Source of the DNA: Sulfuricystis thermophila
Lineage (GTDB): Bacteria > Pseudomonadota > Gammaproteobacteria > Burkholderiales > Rhodocyclaceae
Direction: 5' to 3'
Assembly (NCBI RefSeq): GCF_004323595.1
Contig: NZ_AP019373.1
Location: 1,550,001 to 1,614,000, forward strand
DNA length: 64,000 nt
Shown in pieces: positions 3,795 through 51,353 of this stretch (position 1 is its first letter; the number at the start of each line of letters is the position of its first letter). The position numbers and the translations under genes were made by a program. Under the pieces are notes generated by a model. That model saw only the letters and a list, made by a program, of their open reading frames with translations, had not been told where the DNA came from and did not search any database.

Positions 3795-4079
3795 ATGGAA
3801 GCAAATCAGAAACTCACGATCAACTCGACAGAGCTCGCGCAAGCTCTAAACATCCCGCGCGTTGCGTTCGCGCGGCATCGCTCCGGCTTGATCAATCATC
3901 CGCTATTGCGCGGCTTGCCGGAGCCGCTGCAGCAGTATCCGCGGCTTGTCTGGTTGCGCGCCGACATCAACGACTGGCTCGCATCCCGCCGCACTTTCCG
4001 CCCCTCCGACGCCCCCGCCCAGGCCCCGACCCCGGCCCCGCGCCGTGGCCGTCCGCGCAAGGAAAGGGGTGCGGTATGA
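3795..4079 (+). CDS. small HTH-like protein preceding repA
   Basis: A 94-residue protein preceded by AAAGGA. The N-terminal half (ELAQALNIPRVAFARHRSGL) looks like a helix-turn-helix, followed by a WLRADINDWLASR segment typical of AlpA/excisionase-like small regulators, then a proline/alanine tail ending RRGRPRKERG, an AT-hook-like basic patch. The stop overlaps the repA start (ATGA), so the two are translationally coupled. In IncQ plasmids a small repressor gene (repF) precedes repA; this protein occupies that place, but homology to RepF is not established. Confidence 0.7.
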   Translation: MEANQKLTINSTELAQALNIPRVAFARHRSGLINHPLLRGLPEPLQQYPRLVWLRADINDWLASRRTFRPSDAPAQAPTPAPRRGRPRKERGAV

Positions 4080-4957: not shown

Positions 4958-5810
4958 TCGCCCCGCCCTGCCGACCGCGACAGCGCGCGAACATCGGCTA
5001 CGGCTGTTTCAGCCGACGCGCAGGCCGCGCCCTCTGCGCGATGTGGAAATCGCGACCCCCTGGGGCCGGCTCATTATTACCGGCCGCCTTGGACAGTCGC
5101 ATGCCGACGTAATGGACGCGATTTGCTACCACGCAGAACGCCGCGTCGACATGAACGACGGACGGATCAAGCTGCTTGTCGATCCCGCGCGCGTGCGCCG
5201 GGCATGCCGGCTTGGTGGCGAACAGCTCGAGAAAATCGCCCGGGAGTTGCGCGAGGCGACGATCCAGATCAAGGAACCGCAGGAAATCGCTTGCATTGGC
5301 GGCCTTGTCGATCATATCGACACCGCCCTGCGTGCCGACGGCTCGCCCATTACTCGCCACAACCCGCTGCGCGGGGGAGAGCGGGAACTATGGCGGGTGG
5401 AACTTGGAAAAGCGCTATGCAAGCTGATTGCCCGCGATGCCTGGGTCGGCTACGACCCGGCGCCGATTGCACGCTTGCAGCACGGCATAAGTCAGGCTGT
5501 CGCCCGGCACGTGCTCAGTCACAAGACCGCCCCGGCAGGCGGATGGAGGCTCGACACGCTCATCGCCGCCGCAGCCGGCGAGGTCGGCGGACAGGCACTG
5601 TGGGACAAGCGGCGCGAGCTGCGGGCGGACGCGGGCGGGCTGGCGGCGGTCGGGGTGCTGCTCGACGGCGAGCGGGTGCGGCGCCTGGAGCAAACGCCCG
5701 GCGGCATGGAGCAAACGCCCGGTGGCATGGAGCAAACGCCCGGCGGTAGCAGGTACACGTTCAGATGCACTTCAGGTGCATCTTCAGGAGCACCTGCCTG
5801 TCGCCCGTGA
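4944..5810 (+). CDS. repC: IncQ-type RepC origin-binding initiator
   Basis: A 288-residue protein directly after repA, in the place and size class of RSF1010 RepC (283 aa), which binds origin iterons and recruits RepA. The sequence has a winged-helix-like pattern (ELWRVELGKALCKLIARD, then LQHGISQAVARHVLSHK and WRLDTLIAAAAG) similar in layout to RepC. The ATG at 4944 is favoured over 4938 because GGAGG at 4932-4936 gives proper spacing. The C-terminus contains three 7-residue repeats EQTPGGM, unlike classical RepC, made by a 21-bp tandem repeat. Assignment rests on synteny and weak pattern similarity. Confidence 0.7.
   Translation: MQTFDRPALPTATAREHRLRLFQPTRRPRPLRDVEIATPWGRLIITGRLGQSHADVMDAICYHAERRVDMNDGRIKLLVDPARVRRACRLGGEQLEKIARELREATIQIKEPQEIACIGGLVDHIDTALRADGSPITRHNPLRGGERELWRVELGKALCKLIARDAWVGYDPAPIARLQHGISQAVARHVLSHKTAPAGGWRLDTLIAAAAGEVGGQALWDKRRELRADAGGLAAVGVLLDGERVRRLEQTPGGMEQTPGGMEQTPGGSRYTFRCTSGASSGAPACRP
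5688..5750 (+). repeat. 21-bp tandem repeat (3 units) in repC 3' end
   Basis: Three units of GAGCAAACGCCCGGYGGCAT plus one base encode EQTPGGM. The third unit is altered at its end. Such coding repeats can change copy number by slippage. Confidence 0.85.
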
Positions 5811-6251: not shown

Positions 6252-6566
6252 ATGAAAACCCTTGCTGAAATGGCGACAACTGTTTCCGACCGTCGCACCG
6301 TGAAATTGTGTCAGCTGCTTCCTCAGATCGAGAAGGCCCGCAACAACGGCTGGGCGTGGCGCGAGATCGTTTATGCCTTGCGGGAATACGATCTCGGCAT
6401 CGATCCCAATGGCAAAAACGCAGGTCGGCTACTGAGCAACGCCTACCACCAGGCGAAGAAAGCGGCGGAAAAGGGACTCTATAAGCCTGTTACCCGCCGC
6501 ACAGAGAGTGCGGTCGGGAGCATGCCTGCCCTGAGCTCCAACAAGCGTGAACTGCCTCGTATTTGA
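6252..6566 (+). CDS. TraK/MobC-like small DNA-binding protein
   Basis: A 104-residue basic protein with a good ribosome site (AAAGGAG). The segment IEKARNNGWAWREIVYALREYDLGID followed by RLLSNAYHQAKK resembles the pattern of IncP TraK (short helix-turn-helix that tests a start-and-extend region, then a basic helix). In IncP and IncQ2 plasmids, TraK/MobC binds oriT to assist the relaxase; StbA plays a related role in plasmid positioning. It is the first of three coupled genes with ParA-like and coiled-coil membrane partners, matching TraKLM or StbABC order. Similarity is by pattern only. Confidence 0.6.
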   Translation: MKTLAEMATTVSDRRTVKLCQLLPQIEKARNNGWAWREIVYALREYDLGIDPNGKNAGRLLSNAYHQAKKAAEKGLYKPVTRRTESAVGSMPALSSNKRELPRI

Positions 6567-6582
6567 TGAAAGGAGCGGTGAC

Positions 6583-7317
6583 ATGAACCACAAGGTGCTC
6601 TATTTCTCCCACGGCGACAAGGGGGGTGTCGGGAAGTCCGTTGTCGCTAGCGTCATGACTGACTGGTTGCAGGAGCGGGGCCACTGTCTCGCTGTCGTTG
6701 ATGGTGACGAGTCGAACAATGACGTTGGCCGCAGGTTTCTCGATGCCGAGGGGATTTATGCTGCGGCTCTTCGTCTGAACGACCCGTCGGACGCCGAGGC
6801 TTCCATCGCCCGTTTCTCGAACTGGCTCGAAGCCCGACCCCAGATCGATCGGGTAGTGATCAATTTGCCGGCGAATGCGTCTGAGACGCTCGACGGCCAG
6901 GCCGAGATTCTGCGTGATGTCGCCGAAGCGTTGGGGTTCAAGATGCGAGTCGTATATTCGGTTGGCAAGAGCGTGCCTGCTGCCCAGATGCTGCAGAAGA
7001 GCTTCACCAGTGGATTGATGAGTGTCGTGCACCCGGGAGACCGCATGGTGCTGTTCCCGGAGTTCGACGCCCGTCCTGAGGACACGGCCTGGTATGGGAT
7101 CAAGGACGATTGCGTGGCGCATGAGGCGGTTTTCCCGGCCCTGCGTCCCGCCGAGGCGTTCAACCAGGTCTTGCGGCTCGAAATGCCCTATTCGGCCATC
7201 GTCCGCACGCGCCCGCCCGGCATCACCTTACATACCGTCATTTCCCTTAAACGATGGCTAGACAATGCCCGCAAGGCTCTGGCCCCGATCATGGACATTG
7301 AAGGAGAAGACAAATGA
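6583..7317 (+). CDS. TraL/StbB-like ParA-family P-loop ATPase
   Basis: A 244-residue protein with a deviant Walker A motif SHGDKGGVGKSVVASV at residues 8-23, followed by LAVVDGDESNNDVGRRF, the ParA/MinD substrate-strand pattern, and RVVINLPANASE as Walker B. The GKGGVGKS family includes ParA partition proteins, TraL of IncP, MobD of IncQ2 and StbB of IncW. It is preceded by AAAGGAG and its stop overlaps the next start (ATGA). With the TraK-like and membrane-anchored coiled-coil neighbours, a role in relaxosome assistance or element segregation is likely rather than classical ParAB, because no ParB is present. Confidence 0.75.
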   Translation: MNHKVLYFSHGDKGGVGKSVVASVMTDWLQERGHCLAVVDGDESNNDVGRRFLDAEGIYAAALRLNDPSDAEASIARFSNWLEARPQIDRVVINLPANASETLDGQAEILRDVAEALGFKMRVVYSVGKSVPAAQMLQKSFTSGLMSVVHPGDRMVLFPEFDARPEDTAWYGIKDDCVAHEAVFPALRPAEAFNQVLRLEMPYSAIVRTRPPGITLHTVISLKRWLDNARKALAPIMDIEGEDK

Positions 7318-8102
7318 ACATTCGCGATTCGGTTTTGCGCTCGTTGCCCGGTGAAGTGAGGGAAGAGGCGTTACGGCTTGCGGCTGACCGGAAGCTGGAC
7401 GCCAACGATCCGGTCTGGGAAATCGTGGCGTTGGCGGCGGCGAGCTCAGCCAGTGCTCGCGAGACCATCGAGGCTGCCGAGCGCGTCGAGGCGTATGGCA
7501 ATGAGATGGCGGCTCAGGTATCGAAATCGAGGGATGCGCTGCTCAAACTGGCCGAGCGTGTCGATGGCGCAATGAACCAGTTGGCTGACGACGCTCATAA
7601 GCTGGCCGATCATGCCGCTCAGAACGTGCGCAATGCCGGGAAAGAGGTTAAGGAATCGATCCAGCTACTCTCGCGGGAGTTGGGTTATTCCGCCCAGAGT
7701 GGTGTAGAGAGCGGTTTGATCAAGGTGAACCAGGCGTTCAAGCAGGCTCAGGGTGAGTTTGAGAGGAGCGTCGAGAGCTTGGCACGGAATAAGGCGTCTT
7801 TGATTGCCCGTGAAGCTGCTGCGGAGGCGCTTGCCCTGGACACAGTTGTAAATTGGGGTATTCCGATATTGGTATTCACGTTGGCTATCATGGGCGCCTA
7901 TTACCTGGGCACTCTTAGCTTACTTCATACCAGACCATGGCTTGGCTTCGGGATGTTTGTGATTTCGGCGTCAGCTAGCTCCATATTGGTGACCCTTCGC
8001 AATAGGTACACGCCCTTGTGGTACGCCATCGCCAGTAACTTGGGATGGATTTTGATTGCATTATTTGCGGGGGCGACCTGGCTTATCGATGCCATTCGCT
8101 GA
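7314..8102 (+). CDS. TraM/StbC-like coiled-coil membrane protein
   Basis: A 262-residue protein. The N-terminal 170 residues are rich in Ala, Glu and Lys with heptad-like repeats (ETIEAAERVEAYGNEMAAQV and onward), indicating a long coiled coil. Three hydrophobic segments follow (about 178-197, 208-228 and 237-257: WGIPILVFTLAIMGAYYLG, LGFGMFVISASASSILVTL, AIASNLGWILIALFAGATW). TraM of IncP plasmids and MobE occupy the same third place behind TraL/MobD. The start overlaps the ATPase stop. It probably anchors the upstream ATPase to the inner membrane. Confidence 0.6.
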   Translation: MNIRDSVLRSLPGEVREEALRLAADRKLDANDPVWEIVALAAASSASARETIEAAERVEAYGNEMAAQVSKSRDALLKLAERVDGAMNQLADDAHKLADHAAQNVRNAGKEVKESIQLLSRELGYSAQSGVESGLIKVNQAFKQAQGEFERSVESLARNKASLIAREAAAEALALDTVVNWGIPILVFTLAIMGAYYLGTLSLLHTRPWLGFGMFVISASASSILVTLRNRYTPLWYAIASNLGWILIALFAGATWLIDAIR

Positions 8103-9603: not shown

Positions 9604-9795
9604 TGCGCATTCCGACGAACGTGACCGACCGCACCGATGAACGTGACCGCTGGGGAAGCGCGGATGCGTGGTGTTCAAATTCTACCTCGACCGGTCACGA
9701 TGCTCCGTGGCAGGGTTGTCCATAGGCGACCGCCAGCGCGCCTCTAACGCTGGCGGGCGGTCGCCTGTGGGGAACCTGTGTTTGGCGCACTGGCA

Positions 9796-10530
9796 TCACG
9801 TCCTTCTCGCCTTGCGCATCGAGTCGCCAGTCAGCTTGAGCCGGTGCGAGGCATGCAGAATGCGATCGAGGATGGCGTCGGCGAGCGTCGGCTCGCCGAG
9901 ATACTCGTGCCAATGCTCGACGGGTAGCTGGCTGGTGATGATGGTCGAGCGCGTGCCGACGCGGTCGTCGAGCACCTCGAGCAAGTCGGAGCGTTCCGCC
10001 GCCGACGGCGGCGCCAATCCCCAATCGTCGATCAGCAATAGGTCGGTCTTCGCCAGCGCTGAGAGGCGACGCGTGAAGCTGCCGTCGCCGTGGGCGATGC
10101 GCAGTTCCTCGAAGAGCCGCGGCAGGCGGACATACAACACCGAGAAGCCCTGCCGGCAGGCAGCGTTGCCGAGCGCGCAGGCGAGCCAGGTCTTGCCGCT
10201 GCCGGTGGAGCCGGTGATCAGGCAGTTCTGGTGATGGCGGATCCAGTCGCCGCCGCCGAGCGAAGCGAGGAGTTTTTTCTCCAGGCCGCGCCCGGGGCGG
10301 TAATCGACATCCTCGAGGCAGGCGCTGCCGACCTTGAGCTTGGCCTGCTTGAGCAGGCGGGTGAGGCGTTTGGAGTCGCGGAACGACATCTCCCGGTCGA
10401 TGATCAGGGCGATGCGCTCCTCGAAGGACAGCGCCGCCGCGCCGGGCTGGGCCAATTGCTCCTCGAGGGCACGGGCCATGCCATCCAGGCGCAGGGTCTT
10501 GAGTTGGGTGAGGCTGTGGTGGGTGAGCAT
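9796..10530 (-). CDS. istB: IS21 transposition helper ATPase IstB
   Basis: A 244-residue AAA+ ATPase with Walker A GSTGSGKT (about residue 107) and Walker B LLLIDDWG (about 170), and the family start [17 protein letters not shown]. IstB assembles on target DNA and stimulates the IstA transposase. It is located 18 bp downstream of istA, as usual in IS21 elements, and full length. Confidence 0.95.
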
Positions 10531-10548
10531 AGGTCTCCTGGGTTGAGG

Positions 10549-12093
10549 TCAGTGGTAGTACGAGGAACCGCGCACGTTACCGTGCGACGGCAGGGTCAGT
10601 TCCGCTTGGGTGTCAGGCAGCGGTTGGCGGTCGAGGCCGGCCTTGAGGATCGAGGCGACCGACTTGTAGCGGCGCGCGCCCAGGGTGACGGCCCGAGTGC
10701 AGGCGGCTTCCAGTCGTTCCTTGCCATAGGTCCTGGCCAGGCGCATGACGCCCAGGCAGGCGCGGTAGCCCTGTTCCGGATGCGGCCGCGACTCGAGCTG
10801 GTAGCGCACGATTTCCGTCGTCGCCGGTCCCACGGTCGCGGCCCAGTTGAGCATCCGGCCCGGTGTCCATTCGGCGTGGGCCCGGTGCGACGCGGGCATG
10901 TGCTCCGGGACGGTGCTGTGGGCGCCATGGCGCGGATTGCGCGCATGGGCCGCCACCCGCTTGCCCTTGAAGAAGCATTCAACGCTGCTGGCGGTCAGGC
11001 GGATCTCGATCTCCTGCCGGACCAGGGTGTGGGGCACGCTGTAGTAATGGCCGTCGACTTCGACGTGATAGTCGATGTTGGCGCGGGCCTTCTTCCACTG
11101 GGCGTACTGGAAGGGAATGGCCGGCAACGGGCGCAGGGCCGGGCGGTCGATGGACTCGAAGGCGTCCCGGCGGCAGCCGGGCAGCTTCTTGAACGGCCGG
11201 CCATTGAGGTCCTCGACCAGGTCGGCGATGGCGGCGTTCAGTTCCGCCAGCGAGAAGAAGCACCGATGCCGCAGCCGGGCGAGGATCCAGCGCTGCACGA
11301 TCTGCACGCCGACTTCGACCTTGGCCTTGTCCTGCGGACGATAGGGACGCGCCGGCAGCACGGCGGTGCCGTAATGGGCGGCGAATTCCGCCACCGCCCG
11401 CTGCGGTTCCGGCTCGTAGCGATTGGCCTCGCCGATCATCGCCCGCGGGTTGTCGGGAACGATCAGTTCGGGGACGCCGCCGATGAAGGCGAGCGCCCGG
11501 CCCAGGGCGCCCAGCCAGTCGGCCTGGGTCTGCGCCGCCGTGGCGCAGGCATAGGTGTAGTTCGAGGCACCGAGCACGGCGACGAAGATCTGGGCGCGGC
11601 AAATCTCGCCCGTGGCGGGGTCGATGACCGGCACGGTGTCACCGGCATAGTCGGCGAACAACTTCTCGCCGGCCCGGTGGATCTGCCGCATCGAGCGCTT
11701 CAGGCTCCGGGCGAAGGCCCGGTAGAGGTCGCAAAAGCGCGAGTACTGGTAGGCAGCATCAGGGTACCCCTGGCGGTACTCCTCCCAGAGCAGCGCCAGC
11801 GTGACGCTCTTGTTCTTCAGTTCCTGATGGACGCGGGCAAAGTCCGGGACCACATGGTCGCTGGCAGCGCCGCGTCCCCGGCGCAGATTCAGACGGCGCT
11901 CCAGCGCGTCCTCATCCAGATCCTTGATCTGCCCCCAGTCCAGACCGACCACTTCCGCCGCCTTCACGTACTTGGCGACGACGCCCTTGGAAACCTTCAG
12001 CGCCCGAGCGATCTGCTCGAAAGACAGCGCGCATTCGTACTTGAGCCGCAACAGCTCCTTGATCTTGTGCATGGCAATCCGTTCTGCCGCCAT
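10549..12093 (-). CDS. istA: IS21 transposase IstA
   Basis: A 514-residue DDE transposase. The N-terminus has a helix-turn-helix (LRLKYECALSFEQIARALKVSKGVVAKYVK). The central retroviral-integrase-like core includes KLFADYAGDTVPV, IFVAVLGASNYTYA, VPDNPRAMI and YRPQDKAKVEVGVQIVQRWI, giving the D-D-E set. Start MAAERIAMHKIKEL at 12093 is chosen for the GAGGG ribosome site just before it. Confidence 0.94.
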   Translation of the reverse strand: MAAERIAMHKIKELLRLKYECALSFEQIARALKVSKGVVAKYVKAAEVVGLDWGQIKDLDEDALERRLNLRRGRGAASDHVVPDFARVHQELKNKSVTLALLWEEYRQGYPDAAYQYSRFCDLYRAFARSLKRSMRQIHRAGEKLFADYAGDTVPVIDPATGEICRAQIFVAVLGASNYTYACATAAQTQADWLGALGRALAFIGGVPELIVPDNPRAMIGEANRYEPEPQRAVAEFAAHYGTAVLPARPYRPQDKAKVEVGVQIVQRWILARLRHRCFFSLAELNAAIADLVEDLNGRPFKKLPGCRRDAFESIDRPALRPLPAIPFQYAQWKKARANIDYHVEVDGHYYSVPHTLVRQEIEIRLTASSVECFFKGKRVAAHARNPRHGAHSTVPEHMPASHRAHAEWTPGRMLNWAATVGPATTEIVRYQLESRPHPEQGYRACLGVMRLARTYGKERLEAACTRAVTLGARRYKSVASILKAGLDRQPLPDTQAELTLPSHGNVRGSSYYH

Positions 12094-12318
12094 CCCGTCC
12101 CTCGCAAAAAGCTCGGGAGAGTAGCGGCTTCTCAAACGTCGTTGCCACACACCCGCATTTCCATTCCGACACCGTAACCGGCGATTCCGACATCGTGACC
12201 GGCCGTTCCGACAATTCGGCCAAATCGGTCACGACTATTTCGGAATTCGCGGTCACGCCCTCGGAATCAGCGGTCACACTTTTTCGGAATCAGCGGTCAC
12301 GTTGCGTCGGAATACGCA

Positions 12319-12379
12319 CAGCCCGGATTCTGTGCCACTGTGGCATCATGAAAAGCCTTTAGTCACGCAAGGAGGATAC
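12319..12379 (+). other. leader of pcuAC with right target duplication
   Basis: CAGCCCG (12319-12325) is the right IS21 target duplication. GGAGGA at 12371-12376 is the ribosome site of the next gene. Only 61 bp remain between the IS and the gene, so the insertion has separated pcuAC from any native upstream promoter and may drive it from the IS end. Confidence 0.6.
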
Positions 12380-12829
12380 ATGAACCATCTCACCCTAATG
12401 ACCGTCCTGACCACCTTTGTCACCAGCAGCGTCCTCGCTCAGGTGGAAGTCAAGGACCCTTGGGTCCGCGCCTCGGTGCCGGCGCAGAACGCCACCGGCG
12501 CCTTCCTGGAACTCACAGCCAAAGAGGATGCGCGACTGGTGGCTGCGCGGTCGCCCGTGGCCAGGACCGTGGAGATCCACGAAATGAAAATGGAAGGTGT
12601 TGTCATGAAAATGCGCGCCATCCCCGGGTTGGATCTGCCGGCAGGCAAACCAGTGGCCCTCACCCCCAGCGGCTACCACATCATGCTTTTGGGCCTTAAA
12701 AGCCAAGTCAAGGTGGGTGACAGCGTACCTTTGACCTTGGTCGTGGAAACGAGGGAAGGCAAGCAGGAAATCGAAGTCAACGCACAAGTCAAGCCACTGG
12801 GTGAAGCCCACGGCCATCACCACCACTGA
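12380..12829 (+). CDS. PCu(A)C periplasmic copper chaperone
   Basis: A 149-residue secreted protein. Residues 1-20 form a signal peptide (LTLMTVLTTFVTSSVLAQ). The mature part follows the PCuAC/DUF461 pattern: VKDPWVRASVPAQNATGAFLEL, TVEIHEMKMEGVVMKMR and GYHIMLLGLK, giving the Met/His Cu(I) ligands (H..M...H.M), plus a His-rich tail HGHHHH that may bind Cu(II). PCu(A)C hands copper to cuproenzymes together with SCO proteins. In this cassette the likely client is the copper-dependent methanethiol oxidase encoded next. The ribosome site is GGAGGA. Confidence 0.92.
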   Translation: MNHLTLMTVLTTFVTSSVLAQVEVKDPWVRASVPAQNATGAFLELTAKEDARLVAARSPVARTVEIHEMKMEGVVMKMRAIPGLDLPAGKPVALTPSGYHIMLLGLKSQVKVGDSVPLTLVVETREGKQEIEVNAQVKPLGEAHGHHHH

Positions 12830-13016
12830 AACAGCATTGGGGTGGCAGGCCAGCGCGGCCGACGCCATTCTCATGAACATCTGGGGTTTGGCCTTTTCCC
12901 GCTTGCTCTTTCATATGAAACGGTCCTGAGCAAACAACTGCTCAGCGCTGGCGAAGCGGGTCGGACCCTCCTGTTCCCAGCCATGATCTACTCTTCGCGT
13001 GAGCAGGGGATATTGC

Positions 13017-13054
13017 TGCGACAAATTGTCACAGGTGTTGATCCGATTGTCACA
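13017..13054 (+). promoter_or_regulatory. putative upstream activator sites for the sigma-54 regulator
   Basis: TGCGACAAATTGTCACA (13017-13033) is a near-perfect dyad. A second TTGTCACA half-site lies at 13047-13054, 21 bp (two helical turns) from the first. The boxes lie about 65-105 bp upstream of the -24 element, the usual distance for enhancer sites bound by AcoR-type activators. Confidence 0.65.
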
Positions 13055-13119
13055 GCTAGGCCACGCTGCAAAGCCAGAGAGGCGATTTAACGCTCTGATG
13101 AATAATGAATTATCGTTTG

Positions 13120-13135
13120 TGGCACGAGCTTTGCT
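13120..13135 (+). promoter_or_regulatory. sigma-54 (-24/-12) promoter of mtoX operon
   Basis: TGGCACGAGCTTTGCT matches the consensus TGGCAC-N5-TTGCW at every fixed position. The transcript would start near 13147, leaving about 100 nt of leader before mtoX. The only sigma-54 activator in the window is encoded in the same cassette. Confidence 0.9.
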
Positions 13136-13244
13136 GATCAACGATGCAAAGCTGATGTGCGAAGACAAGCGTCCGCCACTTGCGGCAGGAAACCGCTGCG
13201 TTGTGCTCAGCACGAAACCATGTTCATAACAACGGAGGAGACAG

Positions 13245-14618
13245 ATGATGAGCAAGAACTACCGATTCACGAGAGGCTTGAAAGCGGTCCTCACCGCGGC
13301 GATGGCGATGGCGTTGGCGTTTCAGCCACCGGCAGCTCACGCCGACGAAACCAGTTGTTCTCCTTTCACCCCCCTGATCAAGGGGCAGGAGGACTTCGTT
13401 TATGTCTGGACACTGGGGGTGGAAGGCGTAGGCGACGGCTCTGACAAGCTGGTCACCGTTGACGTGAATCCAAAATCGAAAACCTTCGGCAAGGTTATAC
13501 ACACCCTCTCCGTGGGTGGGCGCAACGAAGCCCACCACCTAGGCTTGTCCGATGATCGAAGGTATCTGTGGGGCGGTGGTCTGGATACCAGCAAAATTTT
13601 TATTTTTGACATTCACACGGACCCAGCCAAGCCAAGACTGGTGAAGATCATCACCGATTTCGTCGAAAAATCAGGTGGCGTCGTCGGTCCTCACACCTTC
13701 TATGCGATCCCTGGCCGAATGATCATCACCGGGCTGTCGAATAACAAGGATCATGGTGGGGAAACCGCTCATGTGATCTACAACAACAAGGGTGAATACG
13801 TCAAAACCGTCTGGATTCCCACGAGCGAAATGAACGGCGTCAAGGGCGACGGCTACAACTACGACGTGGCAATCAACCCCAGGAAAAGCGTCATGTTATC
13901 CACTTCCTTCACTGGATGGAATAATTACATGATGGATCTTGGGAAACTGGTGAAAGACCAAGAGGCCATGAAGCGGTTTGGCAGTACTTCGGTCATGTGG
14001 GACTACAAGACGCTGATACCGCTCAAGATCTTTAACACACCCGGAGCACCTCTGGAAGCTCGTTGGAACTGGGGGGGCGGCAAGGATTTTGCTGTAACGA
14101 CGGCCGCGCTGACTTCAAAGATCTGGGTGTATACACAGGATGAGAAGGGAGAGTGGCAAGCACATGAGGTGGGCACTATTGGCAACCCGAGCGAAATTCC
14201 ATTGCCCGTTGATATTTCCATCACAAGCGACGGAAAGGGCATGTGGATCAACACATTCATGGATGGCACCACGCGCTATTGGGATTTCTCGGACCCAATG
14301 AAACCTATAGAGGTGTACAAAAAGAAAATCGGTTCGCAGGTCAATATGGTCTCGCAAAGCTATGACGGCAAGCGCATTTACTTCACCTCGTCTTTGCTCG
14401 CGAACTGGGACAAAAAGGGACAGGACGACGAGCAATTTCTCAAGATGTATTACTGGGACGGAAAGGAACTCAAGCTTGGCTTTGCGATTGACTTCTACAA
14501 GGAGAAACTCGGGCGAGCTCACCATATGAAATTTCAGGCGCGCGACATGAGCCGACTCCGGCCTCTTCATGCCGACGCAGGGGAGCATGAATACGCCAAG
14601 CTGACCTTGGCAGAGTAA
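13245..14618 (+). CDS. mtoX: methanethiol oxidase, SBP56 family (MtoX)
   Basis: A 457-residue periplasmic enzyme of the selenium-binding-protein-56 family. Bacterial members (MtoX of Hyphomicrobium) are copper-dependent methanethiol oxidases: CH3SH + O2 + H2O to formaldehyde, H2S and H2O2. A signal peptide covers about residues 1-30 (LTAAMAMALAFQPPAAHA). Family motifs seen: GGRNEAHHLGLSDDRRYLWGG, GPHTFYAIPGRMIITGLSN, GYNYDVAINPRKSVMLSTSF, WDYKTLIPLKIF and GRAHHMKFQARDM. It contains His-rich sites fitting metal binding. The ATG at 13245 follows GGAGGAG; 13248 is an alternative. A sigma-54 promoter precedes it, and SCO1 and mauG follow as in Hyphomicrobium. It is not a selenoprotein (no in-frame TGA). 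Confidence 0.93.
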   Translation: MMSKNYRFTRGLKAVLTAAMAMALAFQPPAAHADETSCSPFTPLIKGQEDFVYVWTLGVEGVGDGSDKLVTVDVNPKSKTFGKVIHTLSVGGRNEAHHLGLSDDRRYLWGGGLDTSKIFIFDIHTDPAKPRLVKIITDFVEKSGGVVGPHTFYAIPGRMIITGLSNNKDHGGETAHVIYNNKGEYVKTVWIPTSEMNGVKGDGYNYDVAINPRKSVMLSTSFTGWNNYMMDLGKLVKDQEAMKRFGSTSVMWDYKTLIPLKIFNTPGAPLEARWNWGGGKDFAVTTAALTSKIWVYTQDEKGEWQAHEVGTIGNPSEIPLPVDISITSDGKGMWINTFMDGTTRYWDFSDPMKPIEVYKKKIGSQVNMVSQSYDGKRIYFTSSLLANWDKKGQDDEQFLKMYYWDGKELKLGFAIDFYKEKLGRAHHMKFQARDMSRLRPLHADAGEHEYAKLTLAE

Positions 14619-14632
14619 TCCGTTCCATCGTG

Positions 14633-15382
14633 ATGGGTAAGTCGGCCTTGATGGCAATGTCCCGTCCCCTTCCGGGGGGCGGGCGTTGTCGCCTTGCGAT
14701 AGTGGGACTCTCATTCGGATTTTGGCTTTTCTTCCAGACAGCGCTGCTTTTCGCCGCGGAGACGAAGGCGGAGGATAAAGTGGCAGACCACAGCACAAGG
14801 GGTTTGCTTCCAGCGCCCGGTAGCTATGAACTTCAGCACATCATGAGGGCGGGTGATGGCAGTGTCCTGGATACTGAAGGTATCTCGCACAAGCTTACGG
14901 AATTCACCGGTGCCAAGGTAACCTTGCTTTCCTTCATTTACAGCACCTGTGCCGACCCGCAGGGTTGTCCGTACGTTTATGCGGTATTCCATGGTTTACG
15001 CGAGCGTTTGGCGCGGGAGCCGAAAGCGCGCAACCGCGTCCGATTGGTGAGTCTTTCGTTCGACCCCATGCGTGACACACCCGAAATGCTACGTCTTTAT
15101 GCGGGTGAGCACTCAAGTCCTGACCACCCAGTCGAATGGTGTTTCCTGACGACGGCGGGTCCGCGCGATCTCGTGCCAATTCTGGATGACTTTGGCCAGG
15201 ATGTGTTCCTCGAAGTGGATCCGGTGACCAAGGCGCACCTGGGTACATACAGCCACGTTGTCAAGGTGTTTCTGATAGATGCTCGGCATTGGGTGCGCGA
15301 GATCTATACGACGACCTACCTCAACCCGGACATGGTGTACAACGATGTCATCACCCTCCTCATGGAAGACGGATGGAGATGA
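14633..15382 (+). CDS. SCO1/SenC-type copper-insertion protein, variant motif
   Basis: A 249-residue thioredoxin-fold protein with an N-terminal membrane/signal segment (LAIVGLSFGFWLFFQTALLFA). The copper site reads CADPQGCP, with five residues between the cysteines rather than the usual three; the partner His is in GTYSHVVKVFLID. The LVSLSFDPMRDTPEML segment is typical of SCO1. SCO proteins reduce thiols or insert copper into cuproenzymes. It lies 14 bp after mtoX, and its stop overlaps the mauG start, so it probably loads copper into MtoX. GTG at 14630 is an alternative start. Confidence 0.9.
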   Translation: MGKSALMAMSRPLPGGGRCRLAIVGLSFGFWLFFQTALLFAAETKAEDKVADHSTRGLLPAPGSYELQHIMRAGDGSVLDTEGISHKLTEFTGAKVTLLSFIYSTCADPQGCPYVYAVFHGLRERLAREPKARNRVRLVSLSFDPMRDTPEMLRLYAGEHSSPDHPVEWCFLTTAGPRDLVPILDDFGQDVFLEVDPVTKAHLGTYSHVVKVFLIDARHWVREIYTTTYLNPDMVYNDVITLLMEDGWR

Positions 15383-16614
15383 AAGACAGAGCCATACGAA
15401 GGCACTGCAGCAGGATGAGAGTGTCAGAGCTTGGCAGAACGCTTTTGGCACTGTTCGCCGTTACCCTGGTTTGCAATCTGGCGCTGGCGGGCGCTTTGGC
15501 ACCGATCCCACCGTTGGGCCTGCCGGCCTTGCCGGTTCCCGCCGACAATCCTCTCACCGAAGAGAAAGTCGATCTCGGTCGGCGGTTGTTTATGGATCGT
15601 CGCCTTTCCCACAACAACACCATGTCCTGCGCCATGTGTCATGTGCCGGAGCAGGGATTTACCTCAAACGAACTTGGTACGGCGATTGGCGCCGAGGGCC
15701 GGAGTTTGCGCCGCAATGCGCCCAGCCTGTACAACGTGGCGTACCAGAAAACGCTGTTCCACGACGGTCGCGAGCTTCATCTGGAAGCGCAGGTATGGGG
15801 TCCTCTTTTGAACAGGACGGAAATGGCCATGCCGTCGGTTGGCTATGTGGTGGAAAAGGTCCGTCGCCTGCCCGAGTATGGCAGCCTATTTCAGCGGGCG
15901 TTTGGTGGCCCGGCTACCGCAGAACGGATCGGGCAGGCACTGGCAGCCTATCAACGTACCTTGCTGTCGGCTAACTCACGCTTTGATCAATGGTATTACA
16001 GCGGCGACAAGACAGCGTTGAATGTTCAGGAACAGCAAGGTTTTATGATTTTCGTGGGCAAGGGGCGCTGTGCCACATGTCACCTAGTCGGGGAGAAGGC
16101 GGCGCTCTTTACCGATAACAAGTTCCACAATACAGGGGTCGGATGGGAGCGCAGCATGTACCCCGAGCGTGCAAGTTACAAGGTGCAGCTCGCTCCAGGG
16201 GTCACCGTTGATGTCAAGGGGGAGCTGTTGCAGTCCTTCGAACCGCCCCAGCCGGACGTCGGGCGCTATGAGGTGACTCTCAACCCCAAGGATCGTTGGG
16301 CCTATAAGACACCCTCGCTACGCAATGTCGCCCTGACCGCTCCTTACATGCACGATGGTTCGTTTGCCACACTGGAGGCCGTTGTCGAGTTATACGACAA
16401 AGGTGGCATCGACAACGAATACAAGTCGCCCCTTTTGGCCCCACTGCATCTCAGCCCGGGGGAAAAAGCCGACCTTGTGGCTTTTCTCAAGACGTTGACT
16501 GGTAACAACATCGATGCATTGGCGCAGGACGCCCGGGCAGCGCCTGTGAACTTGCCATTGCTGCAGAAGGATCCTGCAGACGACTTCCTCGATCAGGCTC
16601 AGCAGCATCCTTGA
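15379..16614 (+). CDS. MauG/bacterial cytochrome c peroxidase-family di-heme protein
   Basis: A 411-residue periplasmic c-type cytochrome with two CxxCH heme sites, CAMCH (about residue 89) and CATCH (about 232), and the family motif APYMHDGSFATLEAVVELYDKGG near the C-terminus. A signal segment LLALFAVTLVCNLALAG lies near the N-terminus. MauG uses high-valent di-heme iron to oxidise tryptophans of methylamine dehydrogenase to TTQ. In Hyphomicrobium a mauG-like gene sits beside mtoX and has been suggested to mature the enzyme; the same role is inferred here. The start at 15379 overlaps the SCO1 stop (ATGA); 15415 would give a shorter leader and is possible. Peroxidase activity against the H2O2 product is another option. 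Confidence 0.9.
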   Translation: MKDRAIRRHCSRMRVSELGRTLLALFAVTLVCNLALAGALAPIPPLGLPALPVPADNPLTEEKVDLGRRLFMDRRLSHNNTMSCAMCHVPEQGFTSNELGTAIGAEGRSLRRNAPSLYNVAYQKTLFHDGRELHLEAQVWGPLLNRTEMAMPSVGYVVEKVRRLPEYGSLFQRAFGGPATAERIGQALAAYQRTLLSANSRFDQWYYSGDKTALNVQEQQGFMIFVGKGRCATCHLVGEKAALFTDNKFHNTGVGWERSMYPERASYKVQLAPGVTVDVKGELLQSFEPPQPDVGRYEVTLNPKDRWAYKTPSLRNVALTAPYMHDGSFATLEAVVELYDKGGIDNEYKSPLLAPLHLSPGEKADLVAFLKTLTGNNIDALAQDARAAPVNLPLLQKDPADDFLDQAQQHP

Positions 16615-16667
16615 GCGTCCTTTGGACGACACGAGTGATGGGTTCCGAGCATCACTTGAACTGTCGA

Positions 16668-18635
16668 TCACGTCTCCGTGCGCCCCTGGATACCCAGTTG
16701 TCTCATCTTGCGGTAAAGCGTGTTGCGGCTGATGCCCAAACTGCGCGCAGCGACGGTAACGTTCCAGCGACAACGCTCCAGCTGGTCAAGAATGGCATCC
16801 CTCTCCGCCTGTTCCAGGGCAGTCATATCAGCCTCTTGGAGGTTTCCCGCAGAAGACCCTTTTTTGGTCAATCGTTGTTCACCCCGGATCTCGATCGGCA
16901 GATCGGCAACGTCGATGACTTTGCCGTCACACAATGCTAGACATGTACGCAGGACATTGCGCAACTGCCGAATGTTGCCAGGCCAGGAATAAGCCTCCAG
17001 GCAACGCAGCGCAGCCTCGCTCAACTGCACCGGTTCACGGTCGCGGCATTCCATGCGCAGCAGATGCCAAATCAGGGCTTGCTTGTCCTGGCGCTGACGC
17101 AACGGAGGCAAATTTAGCATCAAGCCGGCGAGACGGTAATAGAGATCCTCCCGAAATCTGCCCTCTGCAACCAACTCCCTGAGATTTCGATGGGTTGCGC
17201 TGATGACCTTGATATCCACACGGAGAGGGGTCTCCCCGCCAAGAGGAACTACCTCCCGCGTCTCGAGCACCCGCAGGAGGCGGGCTTGCAGCGGCAGTGG
17301 CATGTCACCAATTTCGTCCAAAAATAGCGTGCCGCCATTGGCCTGGACGATTTTGCCCCGACGCCCGTCGCGCACGGCTCCGGTAAACGCACCCGCTTTA
17401 TAGCCGAACAGCTCGCTTTCGATCAGCGATTCCGGAATCGCCGCGCAGTTCACCGCGACAAAGGGCTTCTCCGGGCCGAGTCCTTCGGCATGGATTGCCA
17501 GCGCGAACCACTCTTTCCCAGTACCCGTCTCACCCGTCAGCAGAACGGGGATATCTTTCCCCACTATGCGGCGTGCGCAGCGTATGTTGTATTGCATGGT
17601 CGGATCCCCGAATTCCATTTGGTAAAGCTCGATCCCATACCGCCCGCTCGTATCCCCTTCCGGCGCCGAAAACCGCCTGACGAATACCGGTGTAGAAGTG
17701 AGCCGGCGTTCGGGCAGCCTGAGCAATCCAAAGAAACGCTTGCCTTTGCCTGCTTCATACAGGGGCAACGGACTAAGCCACGCCTGGCCCCTTTTCCCAA
17801 AGAGCGTGTTTACGCTGACGTCGAACAACTCCTCGACATTCCGGCCCACGACGTCGCGGGACTCCTTGAGCCCCAATTGAAAAAGGGCGCTGCGATTTGC
17901 AGCAATAATCTGGCCGTCTTCCGCCAAAGCCAGCAGTCCCTCCCATAATGTCCAAATGAACTCGGGCCGGCTGTGAAAGCGCAGCGCGAATTGGTCGCCA
18001 AACTGATACAGGAAAAATCTGTTTTCGATCATCTGCGCCGACATGTTGACCAGCACGAGAGTATGCTGCTGTCCCAAATGCGAATAACTCGACGCATCCA
18101 AGACCGCCAACAGGCTTCCATCGTGGGCGAAGATGGGAGCCGCGGAGCAAGTCAGGCCGATGTTTCGGAACAGATAGTGCTCGTTGTGGTGCACCGAGAC
18201 AGGACGCCGCTCAATGGCGCAGGTACCCATACCGTTTGTACCCTGATGACGCTCGCTCCAGACGGCTCCTTCCATCATGCCGCAGTCGGCGGCGCTGTCG
18301 GTGAACGATGGATCCCCCAGTAGGTCGAGAATCACGCCATCCGCGTCGGTCAAGAGCACAGAGAAGCCAGAGCCGGCCAACTGCTGATATAGGCTGACCA
18401 TCTCACCCTGCGCGATGTCGCGCAGGCCCTTCAACTGCTCCTGCCGGGCGTGAAGCTCAGTTCCGTTAACGACTGGAGGTTGCTGATGGTCGGCCGGATC
18501 CAGACCAAAATCGTTGTAACAACGCCTCCAAGAGCGAACGATGACCGGGGCCATTGTCGCCATTTCCAACGGACCCTGCGAGCTGACAACCGCGTTTACC
18601 AGATGAACATGCTCCAAGACCTGTCCCCGTTCCAT
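16668..18635 (-). CDS. AcoR-type sigma-54-dependent transcriptional activator
   Basis: A 655-residue activator. The N-terminal region (about 30-230) has the AcoR layout with SWRRC and a GAF-like sensor (GVILDLLGDP, GTNGMGTCAIERRPVSVHHNEHY). A PAS-like segment follows (LLALAEDGQIIAANRSALFQLGL). The AAA+ domain has GETGTGKE, the sigma-54 contact loop GAFTGA and LFLDEIGDMPLPLQARLLR. A Fis-type helix-turn-helix lies at the end (WNVTVAARSLGISRNTLYRKM). The ATG at 18635 is chosen for AGGAGG 10 bp upstream. It is convergent with mtoX-sco-mauG and the obvious candidate to activate the mtoX -24/-12 promoter. The ligand is unknown; methanethiol or a product is plausible. Confidence 0.93.
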   Translation of the reverse strand: MERGQVLEHVHLVNAVVSSQGPLEMATMAPVIVRSWRRCYNDFGLDPADHQQPPVVNGTELHARQEQLKGLRDIAQGEMVSLYQQLAGSGFSVLLTDADGVILDLLGDPSFTDSAADCGMMEGAVWSERHQGTNGMGTCAIERRPVSVHHNEHYLFRNIGLTCSAAPIFAHDGSLLAVLDASSYSHLGQQHTLVLVNMSAQMIENRFFLYQFGDQFALRFHSRPEFIWTLWEGLLALAEDGQIIAANRSALFQLGLKESRDVVGRNVEELFDVSVNTLFGKRGQAWLSPLPLYEAGKGKRFFGLLRLPERRLTSTPVFVRRFSAPEGDTSGRYGIELYQMEFGDPTMQYNIRCARRIVGKDIPVLLTGETGTGKEWFALAIHAEGLGPEKPFVAVNCAAIPESLIESELFGYKAGAFTGAVRDGRRGKIVQANGGTLFLDEIGDMPLPLQARLLRVLETREVVPLGGETPLRVDIKVISATHRNLRELVAEGRFREDLYYRLAGLMLNLPPLRQRQDKQALIWHLLRMECRDREPVQLSEAALRCLEAYSWPGNIRQLRNVLRTCLALCDGKVIDVADLPIEIRGEQRLTKKGSSAGNLQEADMTALEQAERDAILDQLERCRWNVTVAARSLGISRNTLYRKMRQLGIQGRTET

Positions 18636-18851
18636 CGCAACCAAACCTCCTCATGTGCAGCAAATTCTAGACCACGTACATTGTCGCGTTGGAGACGGAT
18701 CTGTTCCTTAGTTACTACCCAAAAGTGTCCCTGCCATGACACTCTGTCTCGCAGGTGGAGCACCCAGCCTTGGCACTCGGCAAGGAACCCTTTTTGAAGA
18801 CAGAATTTCTTATGCCTTCGCAAAATCGGCGTTTTTTTTGCTTGTACTAGC

Positions 18852-18864
18852 CATTGGACCAATG
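18852..18864. promoter_or_regulatory. 13-bp palindrome upstream of second SCO1
   Basis: CATTGGACCAATG is perfectly symmetrical, 17 bp before the ATG of the second SCO1 gene, in the 246-bp region divergent from the sigma-54 activator. Role unknown. No clear -24/-12 element was found in this region. Confidence 0.35.
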
Positions 18865-18881
18865 AAAGCACAAGAGGTAGT

Positions 18882-19424
18882 ATGAAATATCGACAGGCAA
18901 TTCTGACTGCGCTGTTGCTTTGTGTCCTTCTTCCCGCGTGGGCGGGCATTCCGGGTGGCGATTTCTTGTTGCACACCCCGGATGGAAGACCCGTTAGTCT
19001 GACCTCCTTGCGCGGTCGCGTTGTCCTTTTGTACTTTGGTTTTACCGCCTGTCCCGTTATGTGCCCTACAGAATTGCTAACCTTCCAGCGCCTCCTCGCC
19101 AGCATGCCAGCCGACAAACGCCATCGCGTACAACCCGTATTCGTCAGTGTAGATCCCAGACGAGACACGCCAGAAGCCCTAGAGTCTTATGTTGCCAACT
19201 TCGGAAATGGGATTTTGGCTTTGACTGGAAACGAAGACGAACTTCGCCGGATTGCGCAGCGGTACGGAGCATATTTTCGCTATGTGGATACGGGCTCCGA
19301 TTACACTGTGGATCATACGGTGAACACTTACGTGATCGATCCCAACGGCCGCTTGGTGCGCATATTGCCCTATGGCACGCCGTTACATGAGCTGCAAGAC
19401 ACCGTGCTACGCCTGCTGCCCTAG
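18882..19424 (+). CDS. SCO1/SenC-type copper chaperone, canonical motif
   Basis: A 180-residue secreted thioredoxin-fold protein with signal peptide ILTALLLCVLLPAWA. The copper motif is CPVMCP (CxxxCP), with the partner His in YTVDHTVNTYVID and the FVSVDPRRDTPEAL segment typical of the family. Ribosome site AGAGG. It is divergent from the sigma-54 activator. Its final stop TAG spans the junction with the downstream IS5-type element; the pre-insertion sequence CTAGCATC would also have given TAG, so the protein is not shortened. It probably shares the copper-delivery task with PCu(A)C and the first SCO1. Confidence 0.93.
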   Translation: MKYRQAILTALLLCVLLPAWAGIPGGDFLLHTPDGRPVSLTSLRGRVVLLYFGFTACPVMCPTELLTFQRLLASMPADKRHRVQPVFVSVDPRRDTPEALESYVANFGNGILALTGNEDELRRIAQRYGAYFRYVDTGSDYTVDHTVNTYVIDPNGRLVRILPYGTPLHELQDTVLRLLP

Positions 19425-20330
19425 AGCCTATTCTCAATTGATGAAATCCTGACATGCCATATGCAAGCTAGCCGAGAGATATTGTTCCCAGTCAATGACA
19501 TGGCGAGGGGCTGTTCACAGTGGGTGAATTATGGTCATATCCTGACTTTTGCGCAGGAGTCAGGATGGACCGGACGATGTTACGAGATGACCAGTGGGCA
19601 CGCATTGAACAGCTCTTGCCAGGCAAGAAAGGCGATCCCGGCCGTACCGCGAAAGACAACCGACGCTTCGTCGAAGCCGTTCTCTGGATCATGCGTACGG
19701 GCAGTCCGTGGCGTGACCTGCCGAAAGAGCTGGGCCATTGGCATCGGACCTATGTGCGCTTCGCGCGCTGGCGTGAGAAAGGTGTCTGGGAACGTGTGGC
19801 AACCGCACTGCAAGGCGATGCTGACATGGAGCATCTGTTCATCGACTCGACCATCGTGCGCGCCCACCAGCATTCCGCCGGCGCCCAAAAAAAGCCGGCC
19901 AACAGGAGATCGGCCGCTCGCGGGGCGGACTGACGACGAAACTGCATGTCGCCGTGGATGCCTTGGGCAATCCACTGCGGGTCATTCTCTCGGCCGGGCA
20001 GGTCGCCGACATCGAGCAGGCGGCAGCGCTGATTCAGGATCAGCCGGCCGAGTTCATCGTCGCCGACAAGGGCTACGATTCGGATGCCTTCGTCGAATCG
20101 ATTACGACGCAAGGCAGCCAGGCGGTCATTCCACCGCGCTCGAACCGACTCAACCCCCGCTCGTTCGACCGGCATATCTACAAGAGCTGCAATCTGATCG
20201 AGCGCTTCTTCTGCCGAATCAAGCAATTCAGACGCATCGCCACGCGCTACGACAAACTCGCAGCATCCTTCTTGTCGTTCATTCATCTGGCCTGCACTAT
20301 CGTCTGGTTGGCTTGATTGAGAACACACCC
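19424..20330 (+). mobile_element. IS5-family (IS427-type) insertion sequence, 907 bp
   Basis: Ends GAGCCTATTCTCAATTGA and, reversed from the right, GGGTGTGTTCTCAATCAA share the TTCTCAAT core. TA (possibly CTA) is duplicated at the target (19422-19423 and 20331-20332). The element holds two overlapping transposase frames joined by a -1 slippery site. It inserted exactly between the stop codons of the second SCO1 and the integrase, harming neither. Confidence 0.85.
19565..20316 (+). CDS. IS427-type transposase made by -1 frameshift (OrfA/OrfB)
   Basis: OrfA (19565-19933, start MDRTMLRDDQWARIEQLLPG, ribosome site AGGAG) carries the DUF4096-type domain and the first catalytic Asp (HLFIDSTIVRAHQHSAG). 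At 19888-19894 the heptamer A AAA AAG lies in the correct phase for -1 slippage. After the shift the frame reads GQQEIGRSRGGLTTKLHVAVDALG, the canonical continuation of IS5-group transposases, through VADKGYDSD and NLIERFFCRIKQFRRIATRYDK with the remaining DDE residues. No other damage is seen, so it is likely functional. Confidence 0.88.
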
Positions 20331-20335: not shown

Positions 20336-21334
20336 TCAGCCGATCTTCCGCGCCAGGTCTTCGGCGCGCGGATGGTAATACCGCTTGAGCATGCGCAAGT
20401 CTTTGTGTCCGGTAACCGCCGAGAGTTCGACGACGTTGGGCAGCTTCTCGGCTAGTCGACTGGTGGCTTCGTGGCGTAGGTCGTGGAAATGCAGATCATC
20501 GATACCGGCGCGCTTGCATGCGCTGATCCAGGCAAATTTGAGTGCGACTGACGTAGTCGCGAATACTCGACCATCGATGCTACGCGGCAGGTCTTGCAGG
20601 ATCGCAACGGCGCGGCTGGATAGCGGCACCGTCCGGGCTTCGCCGTTTTTGGTCGCCGGTAAATGGGCAACTCGGCGCTTGAGATCGACGTTCTCCCATT
20701 GCAGCGCCAGGAGTTCTCCGCGCCGCATGGCGGTTTCCAAGGCTAGCTGCACAAATGCCAGGATGTAAGGGTTGCGGCTTTGCGCAAGCGATGCCATCAA
20801 TCGCGCCTCTTCGTCGGCATCGAGCCGGCGATTGCGCGCATTGTTCGCCTGGGGCAGACGCACCGACGCAACCGGATTGCGCACCGGCAGGCCCCATTCT
20901 TTTGCGGCAATCGTATAGAGATGCGAGATTACCGCGAGATCGAGGCGCACCGTCGCGGCAGACGCGCCAGCTTCTAACCGTTCGTCCCGATACTTGGCAA
21001 TGTCAGTCGCGCGTATCGTTGCCAACGATCGCTTGGACAGTGGATACTCTTTCCATAGGCGGATCCGGCTTGCTTCCTGGGCGTGTCCCTTTTTCTTGAT
21101 CGAGACTTCCCGCAGATAACGATCCAGGGCCTCACCCAGCGTAACGGCTTCGGCTTCCTCGGTCGGCACGAATACGCCGCGATCCATTTCCGCCTCGACT
21201 TGACGCGCGTAACGCTCGGCATCGGCACGCCGAACGAATGTTCGAGATACCGGCGCATGACCCCGCCGCCGAACCTTTACTTGCCAGCCGGTGACCTCTC
21301 CGACGGCGTTTTTTCTCGCAACGATGCTTGCCAT
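20336..21334 (-). CDS. int: site-specific tyrosine integrase of the island
   Basis: A 332-residue phage-type integrase. An N-terminal arm-binding domain (WQVKVRRRGHAPVSRTF) precedes a SAM-like core-binding domain and the catalytic domain with Arg in ETAMRRGELLALQW, Lys in PATKNGEARTVPL, HDLRHEATS, GHKDLRM and the Tyr nucleophile in RYYHPR. Start MASIVARKN at 21334 has GGAGGGC upstream. It reads inward from attR, 128 bp away. It should recombine the tRNA-Cys 3' end with the element. No excisionase was identified nearby; the HTH protein at 3795 could be one. Confidence 0.95.
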   Translation of the reverse strand: MASIVARKNAVGEVTGWQVKVRRRGHAPVSRTFVRRADAERYARQVEAEMDRGVFVPTEEAEAVTLGEALDRYLREVSIKKKGHAQEASRIRLWKEYPLSKRSLATIRATDIAKYRDERLEAGASAATVRLDLAVISHLYTIAAKEWGLPVRNPVASVRLPQANNARNRRLDADEEARLMASLAQSRNPYILAFVQLALETAMRRGELLALQWENVDLKRRVAHLPATKNGEARTVPLSSRAVAILQDLPRSIDGRVFATTSVALKFAWISACKRAGIDDLHFHDLRHEATSRLAEKLPNVVELSAVTGHKDLRMLKRYYHPRAEDLARKIG

Positions 21335-21369
21335 TTGCGCCCTCCGATAATAACCACACGCTTTAGTCA

Positions 21370-21392
21370 AGTGTCCCGCGAGCGTCCCCGCG
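21370..21392 (+). repeat. right-end integrase arm-like repeats
   Basis: AGTGTCCCGCG (21370-21380) followed directly by AGCGTCCCCGCG (21381-21392), matching the motifs near attL. Confidence 0.6.
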
Positions 21393-21462: not shown

Positions 21463-21508
21463 GATTGCAAATCCGAGTAGGTCGGTTCGACTCCGGCCCG
21501 CGCCTCCA
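21463..21508 (+). repeat. attR: 46-bp direct repeat (tRNA-Cys 3' fragment)
   Basis: Exact copy of 3055-3100. It ends in the encoded CCA and is followed by chromosomal sequence leading to the M20 amidohydrolase gene. Confidence 0.95.
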
Positions 21509-51352: not shown

Positions 51353-51353
51353 A

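Follow-up and report, generated by a model that had tools for sequence, protein, structure and literature searches.

How did the genes for methanethiol oxidation reach the chromosome of Sulfuricystis thermophila, and do they form a unit that could move again? The genes in question, mtoX and five neighbours, lie in an 18.4-kb element at positions 3055-21508 of the analyzed stretch of 64,000 nucleotides (the window, to which coordinates refer unless stated otherwise), which is 1550001-1614000 of the single contig of 2,737,315 bases that makes up the host genome. An earlier interpretation of the bare letters (the sequence-only reading) had described a self-contained methanethiol-oxidation cassette on an integrated IncQ-like element. 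The locus is most probably explained as an integrative island in tRNA-Cys with a partial IncQ2-like replicon, carrying a methanethiol regulon whose mtoX stems from a Thiobacillaceae/Gallionellaceae-type lineage, in a Rhodocyclaceae-type sulfur oxidiser. Methanethiol occupies a central position in the sulfur cycle. Were mtoX to move together with its own regulator, the trait could arise in a lineage in one step, and surveys of methanethiol consumers based on mtoX would have to allow for transfer.

Integration of the element into tRNA-Cys

3027..3100, + strand: tRNA-Cys (GCA), the insertion target, reconstituted by the element and intact (ARAGORN and Rfam)
3055..3100, + strand: attL, a 46-bp core formed by the 3' part of tRNA-Cys (exact direct repeat; identical 46 bp at the empty sites of two relatives)
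21463..21508, + strand: attR, 46-bp core (exact direct repeat)
20336..21370, - strand: tyrosine integrase (Phage_integrase 4.9e-28; phrog_1 7.6e-62)

The 18.4-kb region is a site-specifically integrated genomic island in tRNA-Cys. It is flanked by identical 46-bp direct repeats, the sole pair of at least 30 nt reported in the window, and contains, in this order, a small open reading frame (ORF), repA, repC, a ParA-like gene with two neighbours, an IS21-family insertion, the six cargo genes, an IS5-like insertion and the integrase gene. The unoccupied site was found in two close relatives (G002 and G004; loci L139 and L140), both of which have a single copy of the 46-bp core and lack the 18.4 kb. 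At both empty sites, the left flank extends to the 3' end of tRNA-Cys, 46 bp past the start of the right flank, so that the two flanks overlap by exactly 46 bp. A third relative (G017) is also devoid of the element, and its tRNA sequence has diverged. The exact att repeats and the integrase of the sequence-only reading are thus confirmed by the direct repeat, the tRNA-Cys gene, the Phage_integrase match and the empty sites in two relatives, and integrase, att repeats and reconstructed empty site together identify an integrative element. The att sites and the empty sites point, indirectly, to integrase-mediated recombination with the 3' end of tRNA-Cys, in which the tyrosine integrase would act on a circular form of the element. 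The empty site in relatives also argues against an old insertion in this genus. The G+C content of the cargo is 53-58%, compared with about 63-68% for the flanks.

MtoX and its predicted partner proteins

12380..12829, + strand: PCu(A)C copper chaperone, ATG at 12380 (PF04314 2.9e-36)
13245..14618, + strand: mtoX, predicted copper methanethiol oxidase (SBP56 in Pfam; NF052453 735 bits, cut-off 650; four invariant His)
14630..15382, + strand: SCO1-like copper chaperone with a CX5C motif (PF02630)
15379..16614, + strand: MauG/MbnH-like di-heme protein (CCP_MauG 4.9e-56; two CXXCH motifs read in the translation)
16668..18644, - strand: GAF-AAA+-Fis sigma-54 activator, proposed cluster regulator (Sigma54_activat, GAF and HTH_8 in Pfam; 66-68% orthologs in five genomes)
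18882..19424, + strand: second SCO1, canonical CX3C (PF02630 8.1e-40)

Pfam matches for PCuAC, SBP56, SCO1, CCP_MauG, Sigma54_activat and again SCO1 bear out the content and placement of the six cargo genes proposed in the sequence-only reading. The naming of mtoX holds as well, as the protein scores 735.3 bits and thereby lies above the cut-off (650) of the NCBIfam equivalog model NF052453; it is the only SBP56 match in the host genome. Copper is delivered by PCu(A)C and SCO proteins. The residues His97, His98, His150 and His426 of MtoX are invariant in all 44 aligned rows and are read, by the residue matching of this analysis, as counterparts of His89/90/140/412, which PMC5739008 assigns as copper ligands in MtoX of Hyphomicrobium sp. 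VS. The N-terminal Cys occupies one of two adjacent alignment columns (26 and 18 of the 44 rows), and window Cys38 corresponds to Cys28 of Ruegeria pomeroyi with a one-residue shift. PMC10936201 describes Cys28 of R. pomeroyi MtoX as essential and names sulfane sulfur, rather than sulfide plus peroxide, as the product of the methanethiol oxidases (MTOs) of Rhodobacteraceae. The sulfur product of the window MtoX may accordingly be sulfide or sulfane sulfur.

The gene neighbourhood was studied in the best 80 of the 237 mtoX relatives found. Genes for mtoX, SCO1 and a mauG-type protein occur together downstream in 63 of these 80 loci, while 14 have less than 2.5 kb of sequence past mtoX; together with the Pfam matches, this conservation supports the SCO1 and MauG partners that had been suggested. 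The mtoX-linked SCO1 shows CX5C in 67 of 67 best matches per locus and the second SCO1 the usual CX3C in 22 of 23. The di-heme protein remains under the cut-offs of both MauG (TIGR03791, 212.9 vs 443.85 bits) and MbnH (TIGR04039, 255.4 vs 362.85 bits) and is therefore, by this test, related to both families without belonging to either. Published work on related enzymes suggests that MtoX would be exported, would receive its copper from the SCO and PCu(A)C proteins and would undergo maturation by the di-heme protein. The same order of mtoX, SCO1/senC and mauG is found in Hyphomicrobium sp. VS and R. pomeroyi DSS-3 (L217), as described in PMC5739008, and the R. pomeroyi MtoX is 62% identical to the window protein and has the same histidines.

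Origin of mtoX

No match to mtoX was obtained in any of the 18 same-genus genomes (six of them less than 90% complete), and 5 of 61 genomes, the host included, contained one. Such matches were found in G019, a member of the host's family, with 75% identity and a chromosomal operon (its sequence is contained in L010), and in other families of the order: G052 (63%), G057 (61%, one internal stop) and G058 (32%, one internal stop). The operon in G019 is what could be expected if mtoX had been inherited vertically in the host lineage and lost in its sisters, with an unrelated island around it. This scenario is highly improbable, as the relatives carry the empty site without the element, all 18 same-genus genomes failed to give a match, and the phylogeny contradicts it. 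A tree was built from 43 proteins, the window MtoX and 42 chosen from the genome search and the best 80 loci. In it, the window protein belongs to a clade of five rows with a Gallionellaceae metagenome-assembled genome (MAG), two Thiobacillaceae and one betaproteobacterium (support 100/99), while MtoX of G019 is placed in a different supported clade. Constraining the window protein to ten Rhodocyclales-type rows, a group named after the tree had been viewed, was rejected by the approximately unbiased (AU) test (p 0.0027). By this grouping with Thiobacillaceae and Gallionellaceae, apart from the host's family, mtoX is placed as a horizontal acquisition from a Thiobacillaceae/Gallionellaceae-type lineage. 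The sequence-only reading had named trees of mtoX, integrase and repA as the means to detect vertical descent. The one run here, on mtoX, speaks against such descent, and the horizontal origin of the cluster is upheld by the empty sites, the genus-wide search, the tree and the AU test. Vertical descent of mtoX was rejected on the same four grounds.

A conserved putative operator and predicted sigma-54 site

13017..13033, + strand: putative operator palindrome TGCGACAAATTGTCACA (paired copies before mtoX in 6/78 loci)
13120..13135, + strand: predicted sigma-54 promoter TGGCACGAGCTTTGCT with -24/-12 elements (exact match, unique in the 64 kb, 0.14 expected)
18735..18751, + strand: putative operator palindrome CATGACACTCTGTCTCG with 1 mismatch, between the activator and second-SCO1 genes (motif scan)

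What looks like the strongest part of the results beyond the sequence-only reading is a conserved regulatory wiring. The mtoX cluster and a dedicated regulator appear to form a regulon in which a common operator and a sigma-54 site provide the wiring. The predicted sigma-54 site lies approximately 110 bp upstream of mtoX and a GACAnnnTGTC palindrome approximately 90 bp farther upstream. With at most one mismatch, this palindrome occurs twice in the window, before mtoX and between the activator and second-SCO1 genes. The dedicated regulator that had been postulated is thereby backed by a palindrome common to both modules and by the sigma-54 site; RpoN is present in the host. The GAF-AAA+-Fis activator would sense methanethiol or a product of it, bind the palindromes and open the -24/-12 promoter for transcription of mtoX-SCO1-mauG, and, to judge from the conserved sites, the activator's own gene and the divergent second SCO1 are probably under its control as well.

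Upstream regions were compared in 78 of the 80 loci, those with at least 300 bp upstream of mtoX. Paired palindromes precede mtoX in six of them (L002, L003, L004, L005, L018 and L019), five of which also have a sigma-54 site within one mismatch, and one weak palindrome precedes mtoX in L014. Among the controls, 120 of 15600 random 500-bp segments drawn from the compared loci and 55 of 15600 shuffled upstream regions contained any palindrome. The activator was searched in the host genome and in 28 others (genomes of 29 of the 80 loci). Homologs at E 1e-100 were detected in 20 of the 28, and orthologs with 66-68% identity in exactly five, each of which also belongs to the six with paired palindromes. 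In all five of these genomes, an ortholog of the second SCO1 is divergently oriented to the activator gene and a palindrome lies between the two genes, and two fetched loci with 52-54% activator homologs have neither the divergent second SCO1 nor the palindrome. Conservation of this kind suggests an operator function for the palindromes. The mtoX and activator modules are adjacent in the window, unlike in those five genomes, where they are separated by about 7 kb (L004) or about 30, 43 and 47 kb (L003, L018 and L019) or lie on different contigs (L002).

Several observations weigh against such a regulon. At least one exact sigma-54 site appeared in 13 of 100 shuffles. Only one palindrome, not a pair, precedes mtoX in the window, the copy between the activator and SCO1 genes is mismatched, and the exact palindrome occurs four times in the host genome, with the three copies elsewhere at 376370, 812709 and 1766526. 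The elements of the wiring are also not always found together: L004 has the operators but is without a sigma-54 site within one mismatch, L011, L015, L020 and L073 have such a site but no palindrome, and L005 has operators and sigma-54 site, yet its best activator match is 44%. The PCu(A)C gene begins approximately 60 bp downstream of the end of the IS21 insertion, and a PCu(A)C ortholog was not seen beside the activator genes in the other genomes fetched. According to PMC5739008, the regulator of R. pomeroyi mtoX is of the IclR type, whereas the window has a sigma-54 activator and putative operators. The window thus offers a candidate mtoX regulator and operator that differ from the R. pomeroyi IclR system and can be tested directly.

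A partial IncQ2-like replicon

3795..4079, + strand: small ORF, possibly AlpA/excisionase-like, a lead only (weak PHROG matches; no Pfam match)
4070..4957, + strand: repA, IncQ-type helicase (AAA_25; 44-45% identity to plasmid RepA)
4938..5810, + strand: repC, initiator, overlapping repA (47-55% to the best five plasmid records; no Pfam match)
5683..5746, + strand: three 21-nt repeats at the 3' end of repC, probable oriV iterons (sequence repeats)
6252..6566, + strand: small ORF preceding the ParA-like gene (ORF only; no family match)
6547..7317, + strand: ParA/MinD-like ATPase (weak CbiA/ParA matches)
7314..8102, + strand: ORF with apparent coiled-coil and membrane segments, judged by eye (no plasmid match)

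RepA is 44-45% identical to plasmid RepA proteins among the matches listed (30 of 808 records), and for RepC, the best five of 8 plasmid records show 47-55% identity, the one at 47% being typed as IncQ2. Both proteins that an IncQ replicon should have, RepA and RepC, are therefore represented in the element. The RepB primase and the Mob module gave no match when 3001-21600 was searched with proteins of the plasmids L206 and L207: five proteins of three kinds (the protein encoded before repA, MobC and one further) had no match there even at E 1. The 311-aa protein encoded upstream of repA in the plasmid was taken as RepB by inference and is annotated as hypothetical in its record. A comparison of 42 ORFs of two related plasmids with the element (E 1e-3) returned repA, repC and overlapping stretches only, and relaxase families did not turn up in Pfam scans of the element's ORFs. 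As in the IncQ2 plasmids L206 and pTC-F14 (the latter as described in PMC12375680), repA overlaps repC and repeats of about 21 nt lie at the end of repC. L206 and L207 have four copies with 20-21 nt spacing at the repC stop, and the three 21-nt repeats of the element agree in position but lie within the reading frame and differ in sequence. The window replicon differs from IncQ2 plasmids in being chromosomally integrated and in giving no match for the RepB position or Mob. Judged by sequence, the IncQ portion amounts to part of an IncQ2-like replicon, a fragment with repA, repC and probable iterons. The term IncQ-like in the sequence-only reading was thus right as to repA and repC and too generous as to the rest, since neither the RepB-position protein nor MobC nor any other plasmid ORF was found; a true IncQ plasmid was rejected on account of the missing RepB-position and Mob matches. 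The partial replicon, with RepA helicase, RepC and the probable iterons, would probably maintain the circular form. No relaxase of the element's own was found, and transfer would therefore need a helper.

The vehicle itself is a known kind of integrative element with a new cargo and a new site. PMC5704250 describes GIsul2 as an integrative element of 15.4 kb, similar in size to the present one, that has RepA and RepC but no relaxase, and PMC9376610 reports its excision by its integrase. Integrative mobilizable elements of the GIsul2 and IncP-island type share a tyrosine integrase and RepA with the window element (PMC5704250 and PMC9376610). By its published description, GIsul2 is integrated in guaA and contains sul2 as well as arsenic and TrbJ/K/L genes, while the window element has tRNA-Cys as its site and a methanethiol regulon as its cargo. 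Pfam scans of the element's ORFs gave no Trb-type match.

This particular backbone is uncommon. Among 399 genomes of the order, the ParA-like gene turned up in that of the host alone (E 1e-15) and RepC in 8 others, and among 249 genomes of the family RepA was present in 10 others. Among seven loci with related RepA (L142-L148) and eight with related RepC (L198-L205), an integrase was seen in L148 only (29% match plus motif); the motif scan was crude, and a stricter version missed L059, an mtoX locus described below. Viral contigs held no relatives of mtoX, the ParA-like gene or RepC in a scan that reaches close relatives only.

A role in partition or mobilization is conceivable for the ParA-like ATPase and the two genes that accompany it downstream of repA-repC. 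By comparison with R388 and RP4, 6252-8102 may be a mobilization module like TraKLM or StbABC, which is kept as a lead; the TraL match of this region is weak (35 residues, E 0.011). For the small ORF at 3795..4079, the PHROG matches were 1.8e-5 to a family of unknown function and 0.086 to an excisionase family.

Insertion sequences and present mobility

9604..12318, - strand: IS21-family insertion with istB (9796-10530) and istA (10549-12150) (Pfam; ends and 7-bp target duplication CAGCCCG)
19425..20329, + strand: IS5-like insertion with a two-frame transposase (Pfam; ends between CTAG copies)

Both insertion sequences (ISs), which the sequence-only reading does not mention, lie within the element, one on each side of the cargo. 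Their placement raises the question of whether the IS21 and IS5-like insertions on either side mobilised the cassette, the tRNA island being incidental. This is very improbable, given that the two belong to different families and that IS21 has its own 7-bp duplication while the IS5-like copy sits between CTAG copies. With a separate flanking duplication, each looks like a simple insertion. A composite transposon, in which two like IS copies would bound the cargo, was accordingly rejected.

The element may be immobile now, and the finding that only repA, repC and overlapping stretches matched among the 42 plasmid ORFs counts against a mobile unit. One may suspect a dead remnant, an island that integrated, is now fixed, accumulates ISs and retains a partial replicon, so that the cargo works and movement is lost. 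The two insertions, a further transposase fragment at 9136-9378 (Pfam), the failure to find a RepB-position protein, MobC or another plasmid ORF, and the lack of the ParA-like gene in any other of the 399 genomes would all fit. Loss of movement is nevertheless the less probable state, considering that attL and attR are identical over 46 bp, that the integrase, repA and repC frames are all open, and that the empty site persists in relatives.

Possible role in the host

As an integrative island with a methanethiol regulon, the element would supply an MtoX that splits methanethiol into formaldehyde and sulfide or sulfane sulfur. The host encodes SoxB (902 bits, cut-off 550), and reduced sulfur from methanethiol could thus be oxidised, with the Sox system taking up the sulfur. 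As to formaldehyde, no formaldehyde dehydrogenase gene was seen in the element, unlike the mtoX cluster of R. pomeroyi, and a model of the class-III (glutathione-dependent) enzyme had no match in the host, other formaldehyde routes lying outside this search. Calling the cassette self-contained was hence an overstatement. Likewise, the enzyme and its partners stand, but the use of carbon from methanethiol or dimethyl sulfide was too strong a claim, as the class-III match is missing and no dimethyl sulfide gene was seen among the element's ORFs. We somewhat favour detoxification or the supply of sulfur and electrons, rather than growth on carbon, as the main role, which is compatible with the explanation of the locus given above. 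The SoxB score, the negative class-III result and the sulfane sulfur reported for Rhodobacteraceae MTOs in PMC10936201 are in its favour, whereas the restriction of the formaldehyde search to the class-III dehydrogenase model tempers it.

Other mtoX loci with integrases

The sequence-only reading knew of no mobile form of this cluster. No description of an integrated mobile mtoX element was found in the literature searched, although an mtoX on a megaplasmid is known from R. pomeroyi, where the annotation lists no integrase closer than about 6 kb. Among the 80 mtoX loci, any tRNA was found in seven and tRNA-Cys in one, L059, a Methylococcaceae MAG contig (UBA1147), which is also the only one with an integrase clearly related to that of the window (41% identity). 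At 5970-10737, L059 has a tRNA-Gly and, in succession, tRNA-Cys, the integrase gene, a TetR gene, mtoX and SCO1, and the contig ends short of any right att site. Both loci thus have mtoX and SCO1 behind tRNA-Cys and a related integrase, but L059 differs in its TetR regulator and in giving no RepA/RepC match. Counting L059, 19 of the 80 loci have the TetR gene ahead of mtoX, which suggests that a regulator accompanies the operon there too. The arrangement is suggestive of a second mtoX island at tRNA-Cys, and an integrase that inserted beside a resident mtoX would produce it as well. Nine loci with related integrases (L149-L157, among 20 listed), several of them short contigs, showed none of this att core, repA, repC or mtoX.

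It is conceivable, but tentative, that tRNA-Cys-directed islands spread methanethiol oxidation between proteobacterial classes, with the mtoX operon and its regulator travelling as one unit and, in the window, a partial IncQ2 replicon without relaxase sustaining the circle during transfer.

A different integrase, with an Arm DNA-binding domain, lies at 1627-2934 in L018, 7 kb upstream of a Thiobacillus-type mtoX operon. It matches the window integrase weakly (29% over 116 aa, E 3.6e-4) and has a 24% relative in L061. Apart from the element, the window contains a second stretch of low G+C content (46951-59837, minimum 43%) with polysaccharide genes, which encode glycosyltransferases, a flippase-type protein, an O-antigen ligase, and heparinase-like and asparagine-synthase-like proteins.

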